A DNA stretch of 64,000 nucleotides, taken from contig OY540809.1 of NCBI GenBank assembly GCA_961205875.1, positions 33,926,267 through 33,990,266 of the forward strand, read 5' to 3'. This DNA is from Sialis fuliginosa. Its lineage: Eukaryota > Arthropoda > Insecta > Megaloptera > Sialidae. The position numbers were made by a program, and so were the translations under genes. The stretch's first letter is position 1. Each line of letters begins with the position of its first letter. Below are positions 20,734 to 59,628 of the stretch, in pieces. A model generated the notes under the pieces. That model was not told where the DNA came from. It saw nothing but the letters and a program-made list of their open reading frames with translations, and searched no databases.

Positions 20734-22453
20734 AAATTATTATTTTTTGGTCTATTCATAAAAGTACAAAAAAATAATAGGACATAAATTATAGAAAATA
20801 ACGTTCTCTACAACTTTTATTTAAAACATTTTTTTCTAATATAAAAATTTATATCAGTAAACATCCGTTTCTGGTTTAATGATGGTTTTCAAAAGTATGA
20901 GGTGCGCATCTACTGTATACAAGAAGCTTAAGTTTAAAATGTATATGTTTGTATGTCTCGCCGTTTTTGCTGTAGAGCGTTCACAGACACATATACTTCA
21001 TTGAAATAACGGTCGTGTTTGATTCAAGGACCCTCAAAACGTGAAATTCCGTTAAAATATCGAGTTCGATTTTTTTCAGGATCACTATACTTTATTATAT
21101 TGTACATTCCACGTATATATAAAAAAAAAATACATATTTCATTAGAATTTTTCAAACAGTTTTAATTCTAAAATATGTACAGTCACCTGCAGAACTCGTC
21201 TGGCACCCTAAAGGCCATAGTCGCTTACAACAGATTTCAAATTTAAAGAAAAACATCATCGGTTATCTTTTTCTAGGGCGGAGCTTACACTTGCAGTTAT
21301 AACATTTTAAATAAAAACAATAAATATACGTCCATTTCAAATAATGATTTATTATTACAAATTTTGCTTTTGTTACCTAATTTCTTATATTTATTATAGT
21401 TATTTACTTATGTATATTTTAAATCTAATATGTATCTACAATTTATATTGGATTTGGATATTATTTTATACATTTTAACAATTAAATATTAATATATTAT
21501 TTTTTGCTATTACATTTTACGTTTTACACATCATATTTTTCGAGATAAGCGGTAAAAGATACAAAAATAAGCTTTTTTTATTTAGGTAGAGTTAATTAAT
21601 TAATTGTATAAACAATCAATTTTCATAAAAATTGTGTAGTTTGTAATATACAATAAAATAATTAAAAAACTACTGAACCGATTTTTATGCGGCTTTCACT
21701 AATAGATAAATAATTGTTCGGAGCAGGTTTTTGGCTATTATTTTTTTAATGTTGCTGGTTCTATGAAACAACTGTATTCGTTTATAATAAAAAAGACTCG
21801 ACAATAAGATTTCATTGCCACTATTTGCCATATTGGTAAATTTTACTTTTTTATGGCGACAATCGATTATATAAGTCTTTGGAAACACATACAAACAGTT
21901 TTACAAAAATTTGTATTGTGAATCATAAACAAGCATAATTCCATTATTAATAATTTAATTAAACAAAAACAATTGAAAATATCAAGTCCTTATTTTCAGT
22001 TAATGTTCTGTACTACACAATGTTTATTTTCCAGGGATATCAACTTAAAAAACGTTCAACTTTATTAGTTATTACAGCTTGTGTTTTCAGCCATTTTAAT
22101 CAGCGTAACGGATAAACAAATCATTTTTTAAAATTTTTTTCAAAATTTTACATGAAATTTTTTTTGTATAATACTTATTTATACCGCTATTTACCAAAAA
22201 TCAGAAAATCTTAAGAATTTTGCAAATGAACCATGGATAATTCCTGTCGCGGACAACCAAATTCGGAGCAAACTTAGGGTATTATTCTACACCATATTTG
22301 TAACAAATGCTGTTACTATTAAAACTGTATCCAAAATAATCTATTTTAGCCTCCACAGCCTGGACTATAAAAGTTGTAGAGAACATTATTTTCTATAATT
22401 TATGTTCTATTCTTTTTTTGTATCTTTTATGAATTGACCAAAAATAATAATTT
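20734..22453. mobile_element. Inner foldback element A with about 85-bp arms
   Basis: The arm 20734-20828 (with AATAGGACATAAATTATAGA) is inverted at 22368-22453 (with TCTATAATTTATGTTCTATT). The 1.5-kb interior has no inverted counterpart, no recognisable frame and no RNA gene. It directly adjoins element B, and both sit inside the outer arms. Confidence 0.6.
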
Positions 22454-23923
22454 ATAGTGCGAGAGCTGATGACATATTTTTCTGCCCCATCTGAGCACTA
22501 GGCAGACTTACAGAAATCGTTTATTCATATGTTGTACATCATGGGAAATATAGTCCCAACCCCCATACCCGGGGATAAAGGGGTTTAATTCCTTAGTGAA
22601 CATGTAAAGAAAAAGTGCATTTTTGCCCCATGTGAGCACTAATAAAATCACCACAGGGAGTTAGTTTATGAAAAGTTAGATAGTGAAAGTGCAATGGGCA
22701 GACGCGTAGGGTGGGGATAAGGGGCAGGCAGACGCACTCAAAGATGCAATATTTTTTTTGAAAATTGCCCCATTTGAGCATTGATGAATTTTGGAGGGAT
22801 GGCAGTTTTTGATCTGTAGATGATCGAAAAAACAAAGGTAGACGCGTAGGATGGGGATAAAGGACGGGCAGACGCGCTCAAACATGTAATTTTTTTAATG
22901 AAAATTGTCTCATTTGAGCATTGATTAATTTTTTGAAGGATGACAGGTTTTGATCTGTAGAGAAAAAACACAGGCAGACGCGTAGTGTGGGGATAAGGGA
23001 TGGGCAGACGCAATTGAAAGTGTTATCCTATTTTTTTAACTGGGTTGTTTTGTAATTATTTTTTTTGCTTGAAGTTGTCCGCAATGACTCTCTAGATAAC
23101 ACATTAGTTCTTTGAAAACACATTTGTTTACCCCCAACTGACACGAAAAGAAAAAATTTCATTAATATGAAAATCTAAAAAAAATATTAAACGTGTAAAA
23201 AAGTAGGCGCTGAAATTTTTTTTTATTATATTTTGATTATATTCTTCTTATTCTGTGTAATAAACTAAAAACAAAAAATAAATAAATAAAACAGAACTCT
23301 TTGGGATTCGAACTTGGGACTTTGAGTTTTATAAATTTACAAATTTCAGCAAAACGGTACTCAACATCAAAAAAACTACAACAGACATATTTTCTTCTTA
23401 CTTAGATGATTCTAAAACATATTTGATATCATCGGTGGAATATTTAGTACCGAAGATACAATGTTTTTAAAAATTTTACAACCCTTTGCCACTTTCAATT
23501 GCGTCTGCCCTCTCCTTATCCCCACACTACACGTCTGCCTAAGTTTTTTCGGTCATCTACAGATCAAAATCTGTCATCCTTCAAAAAATTCATCAATGCT
23601 CAAATGAGACAATTTTCATTAAAAAAATTACATGTTTGAGCGCGTCTGCCCGTCCTTTATCCCCACCCTACGCGTCTGCCCATTGCACTTTCACTATCTA
23701 ACTTTTCATAAACTAACTCCCTGTGGTGATTTTATTAGTGCTCACATGGGGCAAAAATGCACTTTTTCTTTACATGTTCACTAAGGAATTAAACCCCTTT
23801 ATCCCCGGGTATGGGGGTTGGGACTATTTTTCCCATGATGTACAACATATGAATAAACGATTTCCGTAAGTCTGCCTAGTGCTCAGATGGGGCAGAAAAA
23901 TATGTCATCAGCTCTCACACTAT
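22454..23923. mobile_element. Inner foldback element B with minisatellite-bearing arms
   Basis: The ends are ATAGTGCGAGAGCTGATGAC and GTCATCAGCTCTCACACTAT. At least 240 bp of outer arm is nearly identical inverted sequence. Inside each arm are repeats of about 140 bp built on GCAGACGCGTAG and GGGGATAAGG. The left arm has three such motif blocks (near 22690, 22838, 22974); the right arm has two (near 23655, 23504). Overlapping reverse-strand frames at 22593-23013 are produced by this minisatellite and are not genes. Confidence 0.8.
23280..23395 (-). mobile_element. Possible tRNA-derived SINE remnant
   Basis: On the reverse strand GTCCCAAGTTCGAATCCC (complement of 23307-23324) matches a Pol III B box in a T-arm-like context. 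Upstream (higher coordinates) TGATGTTGAGTACCG may be a decayed A-box region. A body and tail are not definable. It lies in the loop of foldback element B. Confidence 0.35.
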
Positions 23924-24342
23924 TAGTTTTTATTTAAAATTAATTTTAATAATATGAAATCTGTATAGTTATCTATGAAAATAAAATCATTTATTATTAT
24001 AACTGTCAATTAAATAGATGTATAGAAATAATAATATCTAAAACGTGCCAAACTGTTGAAATATTAAATAAATAAGAAGCCATTGACAAAACAACATTTT
24101 TTTAAACATAAAAATTATTATACCGATTTATAATAAAAACATTTGAAATAAAATCACAGAATAGAATTAAAATATATTATCTCGAACATTAACAAAAACA
24201 ACAATTAATGTAATGTAGTTTATATTCAATTTCTTAGCAGAAAGTATTAACTAATGTAATTTTCATCTGTATCATGATGTATAAAAAAGTCTTGTGTCGA
24301 TCAGGGCAGTTTATTTGCAATAATAATTTGCGTTTCTTGTAA

Positions 24343-43502: not shown

Positions 43503-44730
43503 GGTTGTTGCAAAAATAATGCACGTTTATTATTATAAACTTTAAACTTATATATTTCAAAATATAACTAAGCTACTTAATCAAAATAAGAGCCATTGGA
43601 TTCGATACACTTTTCCCAATTAGAAACAAATTTGTTTATGTCGCTAATGTAAAACTTGGGAGTTCTGGAAGCAACAAATTGTTCGAAGGCACTTTTGGCA
43701 TCTGCTTGATTATTAAACTTTCTGCCTTGAAGGGATTTGTCGAGGTGCTTGAAAAAGTGATAATCAGTGAGTAAGAGGTCCGATGAGTAAGATGGGTGAG
43801 GTAAGGGTTCGTATCCTAATTTGTTCAGCTTTTGTAATGTCTCTTATTGTCGTGTAGACATATAGGACCTTTCCTGTTGATTAATGCTGGACATATGGAC
43901 CCCAATTTTTTATGCATTTCGTCAATTTGTTGACAATACCTTTCTGCTGTAATTGTTTCACCAGGATTTAAAAAGTTATAGTGGATTAATCCCTGTACAG
44001 ACCACCAAACGGGCACCATTGTCTTCTTTGGATGCAAACTTGGCTTTGGAAAGTGTTTAGCTTTATTTAATCACTGCCCTGAACGTCTTCTATTGTCATA
44101 CAATCCATTTTTCATCGCACATTACAATACGTTCCAAAAATGGATCGTTTTTGTTTCGTATAAGAAGCATAGAGCAAATTTCGTATCGACGATTTTATAA
44201 TTTTCGCTTTATTCGTGTGGCACCCATTTATCAAGCTTTTTTGTTTTGACAACCGTAGTTAAATACTGTGAAATGGTTCCTGGGTCTACTTGTAGCTCTT
44301 CTGCAAGTTCTCGGACAGTTGTATGTGGATTAGTTTCCCATATAACTTTCAACATGTCCGCGACCCTATTGGTCTTCCAAATTTACTTCACCTGCATGAA
44401 ATTTTTGAAACCAACGCCGCACCATGGATTCATCAATGGACCCCTGCCCCCAAACTTTATTGATGTTTCTGGCCATTTGCGCTGCACTGCGGCCGAGTTT
44501 GAACTCATAAAAATAATTTTTTCTAAAATCCTTTTTCGACATCTTTTTTTAATCACCTTAAAATAGGTGAAATTGAAATTTTATGAAAAATGTTCAAAGA
44601 AATAAAGGAAGTCAGTAAAAAAATCTTTAAAATGATATATGTATAACACTTTACATTAGGCGACAACTTTAAGAGAAAATAGTACCTAAATCTAGGCATA
44701 GGAAAAACGTGCATTATTTTTGCAACAACC
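43503..44730 (-). mobile_element. Near full-length mariner element
   Basis: The ends read GGTTGTTGCAAAAATAATGC on the left and an exact mirror (GCATTATTTTTGCAACAACC) on the right. TA lies immediately left (43501-43502); on the right the TA is one base further out (GTA), a small later change. The 1.23-kb length and the content, a single decayed transposase on the reverse strand, are those of a complete Tc1/mariner-superfamily mariner, close in ends and protein to the Hsmar1/SETMAR type. Confidence 0.93.
43577..44542 (-). pseudogene. Mariner transposase, decayed
   Basis: The transposase cuts and re-inserts the element at TA. Reading on the reverse strand from the ATG at 44542, the N-terminal helix-turn-helix part begins MSKKDFRKNYFYEFKLGRSA and includes MVRRWFQKFHAGEVNLED. 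The catalytic domain keeps CDEKW (first Asp, near 44115), FLNPGETITAERYCQQIDEM, LHDN (second Asp) and SSDLLLTDYHFFKHLDKSL (third Asp), the D,D34D set of mariners, and ends CIESNGSYFD before TAA at 43577. Length, about 322 codons against roughly 345 usual, shows small losses. Internal stops (after 'EDQ', and in the tract after CDEKW) and about three frame changes mean it cannot be functional. SETMAR-type transposases are the nearest relatives I can name. Confidence 0.92.
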
Positions 44731-54794: not shown

Positions 54795-55359
54795 TACACT
54801 GCTTGTCACAATTAGTGGGACACTTTTTCAATGTAACACAGTTTTGGTAAAAATTGTCATATTAATATGAAAATTCATAAAAATCATAATTGTGGTGTTG
54901 TTTCAAAGCCCAAAGAGTAAAAACTTTGTGCGTGCATCGATAACGGGTGTACAACCCTTGGAGAGGTGAAAAATGGAAAGTGACAATTTCAAGTATTGAA
55001 AAAAAAGTTTAAAAACTGTTTATTCCAAGTTAATGATAAAATTCACATTAATTTTTATACGTAGAACTTATTTGAACCCTAAAGGTATAAATTATTTTTT
55101 TTAAATCAATATTTAATTCTATTTACCACCTGTTATCATCCCCTAAGTTTAGGTTATTAGAAATATAGGAAAATATGAAAGAAATTTTAAAAATCTTCAA
55201 GGGTTGTTAGAAATAATCACAATAAATATAAATATACAATTTCAATAAAATCCAGTAATTTTCAACCACTTTTCTACCCTTTAATATTCAACCCCCTGTG
55301 TATTACAATTAATTCGAACAACGTAGGTAAAGATAATTTTTTTAAATTCACAAAATAGG

Positions 55360-56222
55360 TAGTAAACTGTATATACAATGGTACTGTATGTTAAAAAAAC
55401 ACAAATAAATTATAAGGGTAGGCATCAACCCTTAAATACTAAATCGCCCCAAATAGTAGGGTAGAATATTAAATTTAAGTGTGATTTTATAAGAAATCAA
55501 TTAATGCTCTTATTTGAAGATTTTTGTGAAAATTTTGTGCACCACAATTCACCCCTACGGATGTAGCTACCCTAAATTAAAAAAAATTACACTTTTTTTA
55601 AAACATCGTATCTAAAAATTCAGTGGAATTTTTTTGTCATCCTTTCGTAATATAAAAGGCCAACATTTGATCTTTCTACACCGGTAAAATTAAAACAATA
55701 CACTATCAGGAACTACCCTTAAATTCTTATTACTTAAAAATAAAATAAATTTTATTTCAATTAATATTGAAAATATAGGTATCTATGGAAATTAATGACA
55801 AATTTACGAGTTTTTCGTAAGTTTGGTTAAAATTAATTCAATCGTTTTGAGACGTTTCTGATAATAAATTGTTTTAATTTTACCGGTAACGAAAGAACAA
55901 ATGTCGGCCTTTTATATTACGAAAGGATGAAACAAAAATACCACGGACTGTCTAGATACCATATTTAAAAAATTGTGTATATTTTTTGAATTGAAGGTAC
56001 CTATATCCGTAGGGGTGAATTGTGGTGCACAAAATTTTCAAAAATATTGTTAAATAACAGCTTTAATTGATTTTTCATAAAAATAGGGTTGTAAATTGAA
56101 TTCAATTTACAACCCTATTATCGGGGGTGATTTAGTTCTTAAGGGTTGATGACTACCCTTATAACTTATTTGTGTTTTTTAACATATAATTCTATTGTAT
56201 ACACAGTTTACTACACATTAAG
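55360..56222. repeat. Older inverted repeat inside the left arm
   Basis: 55360-55783 and 55784-56222 are diverged inverted copies: GCACCACAATTCACCCCTAC faces GTAGGGGTGAATTGTGGTGC, and AAGGGTAGGCATCAACCCTT faces AAGGGTTGATGACTACCCTT. The second copy covers most of the stretch missing from the right arm. Confidence 0.8.
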
Positions 56223-56474
56223 TAAATTTCAACGTTTCAGAATGATTGAATTAATTTGAGCCAAACTTAATAGTCCAGTAATTTTAGATATAAATGTACC
56301 TAATCTGGGAAAAAAATAGCAGATAGCTGAATTTTTGTATACACCTTCGTTACAGTGTTATAAATAACGTGTAAAAAGTCCCCAACGATATCAAGCCGGC
56401 GTTGCGAGATATTGAAGGTCTAACGTGACGAAAAACGGTTATTCGCGAATATCTCGCTTCCTATGACTCGGAGG

Positions 56475-56711
56475 TCAATAAGGGTTATTATATAAACGGT
56501 GTATTATTAAATTCTTAAGAAAAAAGGCTCTTTCCATTTTTTTTTGAAAAACAACCGTTCTCGTGGTAGAGCGCGGAGAAAGTATGGCTATATATTTGCA
56601 TACGGTATGACGCACTCTATGGCAATTGACTATTTGCATATGACTATTACTAAATGAAAAAATTACAGGACAAAAATTAAAGAGTAGCAAATAATCTATA
56701 AGGTGTGTCAT
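56475..56711 (-). other. 78-codon open frame in left arm, duplicated in right arm
   Basis: The predicted peptide begins MTHLIDYLLLFNFCPVIFSF, is hydrophobic at its start and cysteine-containing, and has no family I recognise. An identical frame lies at 58043-58279 on the other strand because the arms are identical here. Since identity extends well outside the frame, it gives no evidence of selection for coding. Probably fortuitous. Confidence 0.25.
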
Positions 56712-57324
56712 TCGGATATATTAAAAAAAAAGTTTTTATCAATTTTAATCACATTTAGTAGAACTGCAAACATAGCGATTTATGAAAAATTACCATTTTT
56801 GTTCAATTTTGTGTTCAAAATCTACACCTAAGCTTTTGTAAAGTTATTTAATGGTTCTACTAAAATAAGCTTTGGACATATTGAGTAGAAAAGAGAGAAA
56901 AAATGTGTTAAATTGACCTGCATTTAACAATAGGTACGTCAAAAATTAAAAAAGCGAAAAAAAAATTATTTTATTATAAAATGCACCCTTTTTAAAGTTG
57001 TATGTGTACTTATGTTATAAATATGACTAAATAGTAATATTATAAATATTTTTAGGCTAAAAACATGTTTTTTATCATTTTTTTGCTAGAAAAACTTCTA
57101 TTCATATTACCGCAAGGTCTCTTGATAGCTCCTATTTCATATGCAAACCATCAAATTAAAAAAAAATTAAAAAAATAGATTCGCCATTAAATTTTGAATA
57201 ATAAACAATAAATTATTTTTTACTTAATTTTATATTTTCCGTGTAATGGGAAGCCAAAATCAACGAATACTGGACGATGACAAGAAAATTGGTGTCCGCG
57301 CGATTCTTTTTTTGTTTTATAAAA

Positions 57325-57430
57325 TAAGGATTGCATCGAGATAGGAACATGAAATTCGGTATTATTGTACATCAAACTCTCCTCCTTAAAAACAGATGTG
57401 TCGCAACTCTCAATTCTTATTCGGTCCCAG
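57325..57430. other. Spacer at the palindrome centre
   Basis: The 106-bp single-copy spacer between two TTTTATAAAA motifs (57315-57324, 57431-57440). Includes CATCGAGATAGGAACATGAA. A spacer of this size is what lets a long palindrome persist without rapid deletion. Confidence 0.8.
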
Positions 57431-59628
57431 TTTTATAAAACAAAAAAGAATCGCGCGGACACCAATTTTCTTGTTATCGTCCAATATTCGTTGATTTTGG
57501 CTTCCCATTACACGGAAAATATAAAATTAAGTAAAAAATAATGTATTGTTTATTATTCAAAATTTAATGGCAAATCTATTTTTAAATTTTTTTTTTAATT
57601 TGATGGTTTGCATATGAAATAGGAGCTATCAAGAGACCTAGCGGTAATATGAATAGAAGTTTTTCTAGCAAAAAAATGATAAAAAACATGTTTTTAGCAT
57701 AAAAATATTTATAATTTTACTATTTAGTCATATTTATAACATAGGTACACATACAACTTTAAAAATGGTGCATTTTATAATGAAATAATTTTTTTTTCGA
57801 TTTTTTAATTTTTGACGTACCTATTGTTAAATGCAGGTCAATTTAACACATTTTTTCTCTCTTTTCTACTCAATATGTCCAAAGCTTATTTTAGTAGAAC
57901 CATTAAATAACTTTACAAAAGCTTAGGTGTAGATTTTGAACACAAAATTGAACAAAAATGGTAATTTTTCATAAATCGCTATGTTTGCAGTTCTACTAAA
58001 TGTGATTAAAATTGATAAAAACTTTTTTTTTAATATATCCGAATGACACACCTTATAGATTATTTGCTACTCTTTAATTTTTGTCCTGTAATTTTTTCAT
58101 TTAGTAATAGTCATATGCAAATAGTCAATTGCCATAGAGTGCGTCATACCGTATGCAAATATATAGCCATACTTTCTCCGCGCTCTACCACGAGAACGGT
58201 TGTTTTTCAAAAAAAAATGGAAAGAGCCTTTTTTCTTAAGAATTTAATAATACACCGTTTATATAATAACCCTTATTGACCTCCGAGTCATAGGAAGCGA
58301 GATATTCGCGAATAACCGTTTTTCGTCACGTTAGACCTTCAATATCTCGCAACGCCGGCTTGATATCGTTGGGGACTTTTTACACGTTATTTATAACACT
58401 GTAACGAAGGTGTATACAAAAATTCAGCTATCTGCTATTTTTTTCGCAGTTGAAATCTAAAATTACTGGACTATAAGAAAAACTCGTAAATTGTCCATTA
58501 ATTTCCATAGATACCTATATTTTCAATATTAATTGAAATAAAATTTATTTTATTTTTAAGTAATAAGAATTTAAGGGTAGTTCCTGATAGTGTATTGTTT
58601 TAATTTTACCGGTGTAGAAAGATCAAATGTTGGCCTTTTATATTACGAAAGGATGACAAAAAAATTCCACTGAATTTTTAGATACGATGTTTTAAAAAAA
58701 GTGTAAATTTTTTAAAATTAGGGTAGCTACATCCGTAGGGGTGAATTGTGGTGCACAAAATTTTCACAAAAATCTTCAAATAAGAGCATTAATTGATTTC
58801 TTATAAAATCACACTTAAATTTAATATTCTACCCTACTATTTGGGGCGATTTAGTATTTAAGGGTTGATGCCTACCCTTATAATTTATTTGTATTTTTTA
58901 ACATACAGTACCATTGTATATACAGTTTACTACCTATTTTGTGAATTTAAAAAAATTATCTTTACCTACGTTGTTCGAATTAATTGTAATACACAGGGGG
59001 TTGAATATTAAAGGGTAGAAAAGTGGTTGAAAATTACTGGATTTTATTGAAATTGTATATTTATATTTATTGTGATTATTTCTAACAACCCTTGAAGATT
59101 TTTAAAATTTCTTTCATATTTTCCTATATTTCTAATAACCTAAATTTAGGGGATGATAACAGGTGGTAAATAGAATTAAATATTGATTTAAAAAAAATAA
59201 TTTATACCTTTAGGGTTCAAATAAGTTCTACGTATAAAAATTAATGTGAATTTTATCATTATCTTGTAATTAACAGTTTTTAAACTTTTTTTTCAATACT
59301 TGAAATTGTTACTTTCCATTTTTCACCCCTCCAAGGGTTGTACACCCGTTATCGATGCACGCACAAAGTTTTTACTCTTTGGGCTTTGAAACAACACCAC
59401 AATTATGATTTTTATGAATTTTCATATTAATATGACAATTTTTACCAAAACTGTGTTACATTGAAAAAGTGTCCCACTAATTGTGACAAGCAGTGTATTA
59501 AAATGTTAGAAGATCGCTGGACTCGGTGTATCGAGCTAAAAGGAGACTACGTTGAAAAATAAAATCAATTTTTGCCAAAATTCAAGTTCGTTCATTTCCA
59601 TTCCGAATCATTATCGGACATCCTAGTA

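Follow-up and report, generated by a model that had tools for sequence, protein, structure and literature searches.

A palindromic element nested within another in the genome of Sialis fuliginosa, and probable exchange between palindrome arms

Palindromic transposons are already known, and it is the measurable behaviour of their arms that we consider worth following here. Tc6 of Caenorhabditis elegans is a Tc-related palindromic element flanked by TA. The elements described below resemble Tc6 in being non-coding, almost wholly palindromic and TA-flanked, and they differ from it in that two unrelated families are nested, carry arms of ~1.05 kb and allow arm exchange to be measured over many copies. 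Palindromic MITE-like elements have been described in six of 32 clusters in Anopheles gambiae and are likewise repeated palindromic elements without a known partner; the clusters there span 430-1,678 nt and their TIRs 18-204 nt, whereas our elements reach 2.2-2.5 kb with arms of ~1.05 kb (PMC3212995). The foldback-like element Galileo of Drosophila shares very long terminal inverted repeats and a dynamic structure, but the target duplication in our case is TA (PMC4168063). Palindrome P6 of the human Y chromosome undergoes arm-to-arm conversion with rarer inversions, as we propose below, yet P6 exists once, on its chromosome, and its conversion is GC-biased, unlike the many dispersed copies here, which show no clear GC bias (PMC3723533). 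The arms of long inverted repeats in Caenorhabditis are also kept alike, with gene conversion proposed as the cause, although these repeats are gene pairs and the word stem 'transpos' is absent from that text (PMC1803023). Arm conversion in palindromic Tc1-type elements appeared in none of the titles listed in searches largely outside subscription journals, a weak sign of novelty on this point.

We analysed a window of 64,000 nucleotides, positions 33926267-33990266 of contig C1, in a genome of 392 Mb and 20 contigs. Our overall explanation, which we hold with considerable confidence, is that this window contains members of two nested, non-autonomous palindromic families that spread at TA sites, that were probably born by inverted duplication and whose arms later exchanged sequence.

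Anatomy of the 4.7-kb palindrome

Two inverted arms, at 54797-57324 (2,528 bp) and 57431-59495 (2,065 bp), surround a spacer of 106 bp. The outer termini read CACTG...CAGTG and are flanked by the left and right target-site copies of TA at 54795-54796 and 59496-59497. The anatomy given in a preliminary description of this locus (i.e. inverted arms, 106-bp spacer, matching CACTG ends and TA on both sides) was thus borne out by alignment and sequence. When the two arms were aligned, three gap-free blocks (604, 426 and 1013 nt) matched at 98-99%, and an identity of ~98% over kilobase arms is far above chance expectation. No reading frame of at least 140 aa was found in the window, including the arms of both elements discussed below.

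Within the palindrome lies a second pair of ends (GTCCAGTAATTTTAGAT...) with a TA pair of its own at 56271-56272 and 58472-58473. These ends delimit an inner palindromic element of 2,199 bp (56273-58471), which comprises a left arm on the forward strand (56273-57324, 1,052 bp), an asymmetric spacer (57325-57430, 106 bp) and a right arm on the reverse strand (57431-58471, 1,041 bp). The outer element, also palindromic and ~2.5 kb long, consists of 54797-56270 and 58474-59495. Its left part contains the left arm (54797 to ~55856) and the centre, interrupted by the inner element, while its right part, on the reverse strand, holds most of the right arm. A stretch of ~450 bp (55820-56270) in the left arm of the full palindrome has no counterpart on the right and represents the centre of the outer element; by alignment, it is an older imperfect inverted copy (~76%) of ~55341-55785. 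As read from the sequence, the 4.7-kb palindrome therefore arose when the inner element (2.2 kb) entered a TA close to the middle of the outer one (2.5 kb). The true arms measure ~1.06 kb in the outer and 1.04-1.05 kb in the inner element, and their sum through nesting accounts for the apparent arms of 2.1-2.5 kb; the unequal lengths of the combined arms follow from the inner element having landed to one side of the outer centre. Since outer copies vary at the insertion site, the exact empty site is not readable.

Two other readings of this arrangement were weighed. The preliminary description held that the palindrome behaves as a single transposed element with extreme arms of 2.1-2.5 kb, and a single foldback transposon of this kind would fit the matching outer ends, the TA flanks and arms that can be aligned nearly throughout. 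Such an element would not explain why the inner ends possess their own TA pair, why five outer copies without a large insert (L052 and L054-L057) measure only 2,473-2,483 bp or why TA-flanked inner copies occur at other sites. Moreover, the left outer/inner junction has one match genome-wide (at most 3 mismatches, 392 Mb), which is the window itself, and pieces of the arms used as queries led to two different sets of genome places among the best-scored candidates. The insert-free outer copies, the inner copies elsewhere and the junction found once rule out a single 4.7-kb element, so that we regard the foldback reading as extremely improbable, and the extreme arms give way to the shorter ones given above. 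The nest might alternatively reflect targeting, with palindromes as preferred landing sites of the inner element, and inverted pairs of 60 bp or longer do straddle 6 of 28 inner insertion sites. Of 300 random points in the window, 42 also had such a pair around them (28 of these away from the 4.7-kb element and its neighbourhood), and 18 inverted pairs of this size within 4 kb occur in the window; targeting is unsupported by this comparison and appears quite unlikely. Two nested palindromes can mimic one giant element, which serves as a general warning.

Two mobile families and their probable origin

Searching the genome for outer ends (TACACTGCTTGTCACAATTAGTGGGACA, at most 3 mismatches) returned 534 matches, 261 forward and 273 reverse, compared with 0 and 0 for the control, and end pairs ~2.47 kb apart were common among the first 100 matches listed. 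TA was present on both sides in all seven outer copies that were read. The family also includes a 1,077-bp derivative (L053) and a 3,506-bp copy with an insert (L051). Inner ends (at most 2 mismatches) gave 273 and 269 matches, 542 in total, with 15 and 16 for the control. We examined 40 inner loci (the window and L011-L049), of which 12 were without both ends and 28 were kept. Lengths fell between 2,018 and 2,204 bp in 26 of the 28, the remaining two being L041 (1,804 bp) and L038 (1,493 bp), and every one of the 28 had TA on both sides. The multiple TA-flanked copies with common ends that the preliminary description had named as the mark of a mobile family were thus recovered for both the outer and the inner element, and both families have spread over the genome at TA sites.

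Both elements are likely non-autonomous and of Tc1/mariner type, judging from the TA flanks and, for the outer ends only, a presumed resemblance to Tc1-like termini. Each has the TA target-site duplication and terminal inverted repeats of the IS630-Tc1-mariner group. The outer CACTG... termini presumably resemble Tc1-type ends, while the inner GTCCAG... termini bear no obvious resemblance to them. As in foldback elements, long repeats make up most of each element: two arms of ~1.06 kb in the 2.47 kb of the outer one, and two arms of 1.04-1.05 kb in the 2.2 kb of the inner one. Foldback (FB) elements proper have a longer target duplication and tandem subrepeats in their arms, whereas here the duplication is TA alone and self-comparison of the palindrome revealed no tandem arrays in the arms. 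MITEs are short (below ~600-800 bp), non-coding and present in high copy; the two families share the last two features but, at 2.2-2.5 kb, exceed the size.

Movement most likely depends on cut-and-paste by Tc1/mariner-type transposases supplied from elsewhere. PF13358 gave 454 candidate places, of which 150 were scored; comparing these by eye with the ends listed for C1-C3 turned up no transposase between outer or inner ends. A related element with a transposase between such arms, which according to the preliminary description would name the partner, was not found in this search, and three candidates were rejected. The outer copy L051 (3,506 bp) has a PF01498 match, but by eye its transposase gene sits in a separate nested Tc1-like element of ~1.56 kb with its own ends and TA pair. 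L058, with ~2.96 kb between inner ends, contains foreign sequence in which no transposase was recognised by eye, and L061 is merely a shortened outer copy.

Two further Tc1-like families of this genome suggest how such palindromes may arise. At the locus L060, each arm of a palindrome that measures 1,676 bp with its TA carries the 5' half of a Tc1-like transposase (PF01498). Its family has six copies whose arms match 839 bp and 794 bp of the query and which all show one and the same gap of 33 bp, and longer relatives that also include the DDE part lie at C4:20334861 and C3:32381400. Conversely placed on the gene, the 3' half of a transposase (PF13358) occupies each arm of L059, a 1,624-bp palindrome whose sole PDB match at 0.001 was the Sleeping Beauty transposase (5cr4). 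Among 40 scored of 55 candidates, this family has at least six copies with a common 24-bp gap, some of them with indels, and at least 19 short palindromes, up to ~255 bp, derive from the same end. Pair counts in both families were made by eye from the listed coordinates. Because the parent gene is readable in each arm, palindromes of this half-transposase kind are evidence that non-autonomous elements can originate from inverted duplication of transposon ends. By analogy, the outer and inner families were probably born in the same way, starting from one transposon end duplicated in inverted orientation, and the earlier suggestion of growth by inverted duplication gains support from this analogy.

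Probable exchange between arms

Inner arms were compared in 25 copies (50 arms), after dropping L017, L038 and L041, in which one arm is shorter than 900 bp; L050 was unused. For the outer family, L053 was unused and L051 entered the variant counts (7 copies) but was left out of the tree (6 copies). Trees of both families were built from arm cores only. Under independent evolution of the arms from the founding palindrome onwards, the distance within a copy should at least equal that between the same arms of different copies. The mean distance among the 25 inner copies was 0.029 within copies; between copies it was 0.045 for left arms, 0.047 for right arms and 0.050 for left against right. Among 94 inner doubletons (states in exactly two of the 50 arms), 54 lay on both arms of one copy, where chance predicts 1.9. 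Another 26 involved same-side arms of different copies and 14 opposite sides; a further 187 states, a point against conversion, were confined to one arm. The outer family behaved alike: of its 57 doubletons, 46 were shared by the two arms of a single copy (4.4 expected), with 72 singletons besides, and the L051 arms (739 bp) differ by one base. Left and right labels in the inner tree were as mixed as shuffled ones (16 changes, against a mean of 17 after shuffling), and placing all left arms in one clade made the tree 488 log-likelihood units worse (p-AU 1.6e-46). In the outer tree, a copy's own two arms were sisters in four of six cases, with support of 98-99, and a left-arm clade was rejected (p-AU 7e-5).

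The tips and the spacer carry a second signal. All 28 inner copies have one A-type and one T-type tip, and the phase of these tips relative to the spacer is A-T in 23 and T-A in five (L017, L037, L038, L041 and L045). Crossover between inverted arms inverts the intervening DNA, and the simplest reading of the flipped phase is such a crossover, which would occasionally invert the spacer relative to the tips. The flipped copies may reflect as few as two events, since L037, L038 and L041 share a common insertion (flanks 92-100% alike) and L045 belongs to their tip subfamily; L017 belongs to the other. Within-copy distances, doubletons in both families, trees and spacer phase all agree with the continuing arm-to-arm conversion raised in the preliminary description. 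Inferred from variant patterns in many copies, the best reading of arm behaviour is arm-to-arm gene conversion with rarer crossover, by which mutations arising after birth would be copied between the arms of a copy.

Variants present in both arms are patchy and more numerous in older copies. Private variants are distributed unevenly (14 both-arm and 3 one-arm in L023; 0 and 12 in L039), and none of 20,000 permutations was equally uneven. Nine inner copies with a close sister had 25 one-arm and 0 both-arm variants, compared with 143 and 53 in the others (Fisher p 0.0009), a grouping chosen after the distances were seen. The lack of both-arm variants in these nine copies suggests that conversion is slow or episodic. 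Among the 25 variable columns of the single insertion represented by L037, L038 and L041, a comparison of low power, no change had been copied to both arms; this null counts against simple constant conversion at rest. Left and right inner arms still differ in their outermost ~36 bp and where arm meets spacer, as expected where conversion tracts run out of homology. GC-biased conversion was considered for the outer family and set aside: W>S and S>W changes numbered 51 and 74 in one arm and 17 and 16 in both arms, counts that show no clear bias.

The likeness of arms could alternatively be a product of assembly or polishing. Reads from two near-identical arms are confusable, and differences are best preserved at the tips, from which reads extend into unique flanking sequence. 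Such an artefact seems unlikely in view of L018 and L019, which lie at separate sites: the two arms of each copy differ by 5.6%, while their left arms differ from each other by 0.3% and their right arms by 0.6%; the permutation result and the flipped phase in five of 28 copies are likewise not what polishing would produce. Repeated re-formation of palindromes from one arm, leaving arms that are young instead of converted, finds some footing in the inverted duplication of ends that does occur in this genome and in L058, a candidate whose ends are both of the same tip type. Equal tips are, however, what one-arm re-formation would give generally, and the A-type and T-type pair, together with a common asymmetric spacer, is kept in 28 of 28 inner copies, which makes this reading very unlikely. 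Gene conversion with rarer crossover is thus preferred for the arms.

Implications for palindrome evolution

We tentatively propose, at somewhat less than even confidence, that inverted duplication of ends is a main repeated route to non-autonomous elements in this genome, the resulting palindromes then acting as mobile, self-homogenising recombination units: through conversion, mutations would spread to the other arm or be lost, and the loop would be inverted by crossover. Five different palindromes were seen in this genome, only three of them demonstrably from Tc1-like ends. Near-identical arms need not imply a young palindrome. Studies of the human Y are limited to a single locus for each palindrome, unlike these dispersed copies, where many independent insertions of one palindrome make conversion and inversion countable over many sites and ages. 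The nested families offer a natural test bed for the evolution of DNA palindromes and, if our reading is true, their hundreds of dispersed copies would amount to a replicated natural experiment on palindrome recombination off the sex chromosomes.

Palindromes carrying half a transposase in each arm

Palindromes of two other Tc1-like families were identified in the same genome, each containing one half of a transposase in either arm. In L060 (G000:C7:505000-506900), a Tc1-like transposase is represented in each arm by its 5' half, the 33-bp gap is identical in six copies of the palindrome, and full-length relatives are present in the genome. In L059 (G000:C4:20905400-20907400), the half present in each arm is the 3' one, again from a Tc1-like transposase. 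The 24-bp gap is likewise identical in six copies, and the transposon end involved is also the source of 19 short palindromes.

The window itself holds another inverted repeat at 22442-23935 (351-nt arms at 95% identity, separated by 792 nt), with more inverted pairs immediately inside it, as well as an 88-aa open frame on the minus strand (43577-43843), which we take to resemble the end of a mariner transposase.

Insertion and possible excision in outer-family copies

The outer palindrome L051 (G000:C2:16748500-16752220) hosts a separate Tc1-like element of ~1.56 kb at about 1090-2645 which, as read by eye, has the ends CAGCCGCGTGCAAAAGTATTAGGCACC and is flanked on both sides by TA. A 139-aa piece of its transposase matches 24 places in the genome at an identity of at least 86%. 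Another outer copy, L056, has five additional bases (ATATT-like) where the outer copy of the window holds the inner element; these might represent an excision footprint.

Inner-family copies and their surroundings

One inner-family copy, L058 (G000:C1:23698540-23701540), has both ends of one tip type and contains unrelated sequence, part of which is a diverged 72-bp repeat.

The inner copies L037, L038, and L041 have flanks in common (~450-510 bp on each side, 92-100% alike), which shows that a single insertion was multiplied along with the repeat around it. For the inner copies L023 and L024, the left and right flanks are mutually inverted repeats (97% over 331 bp; 81-94% in pieces), and these loci are additional cases of a palindrome interrupting a palindrome.
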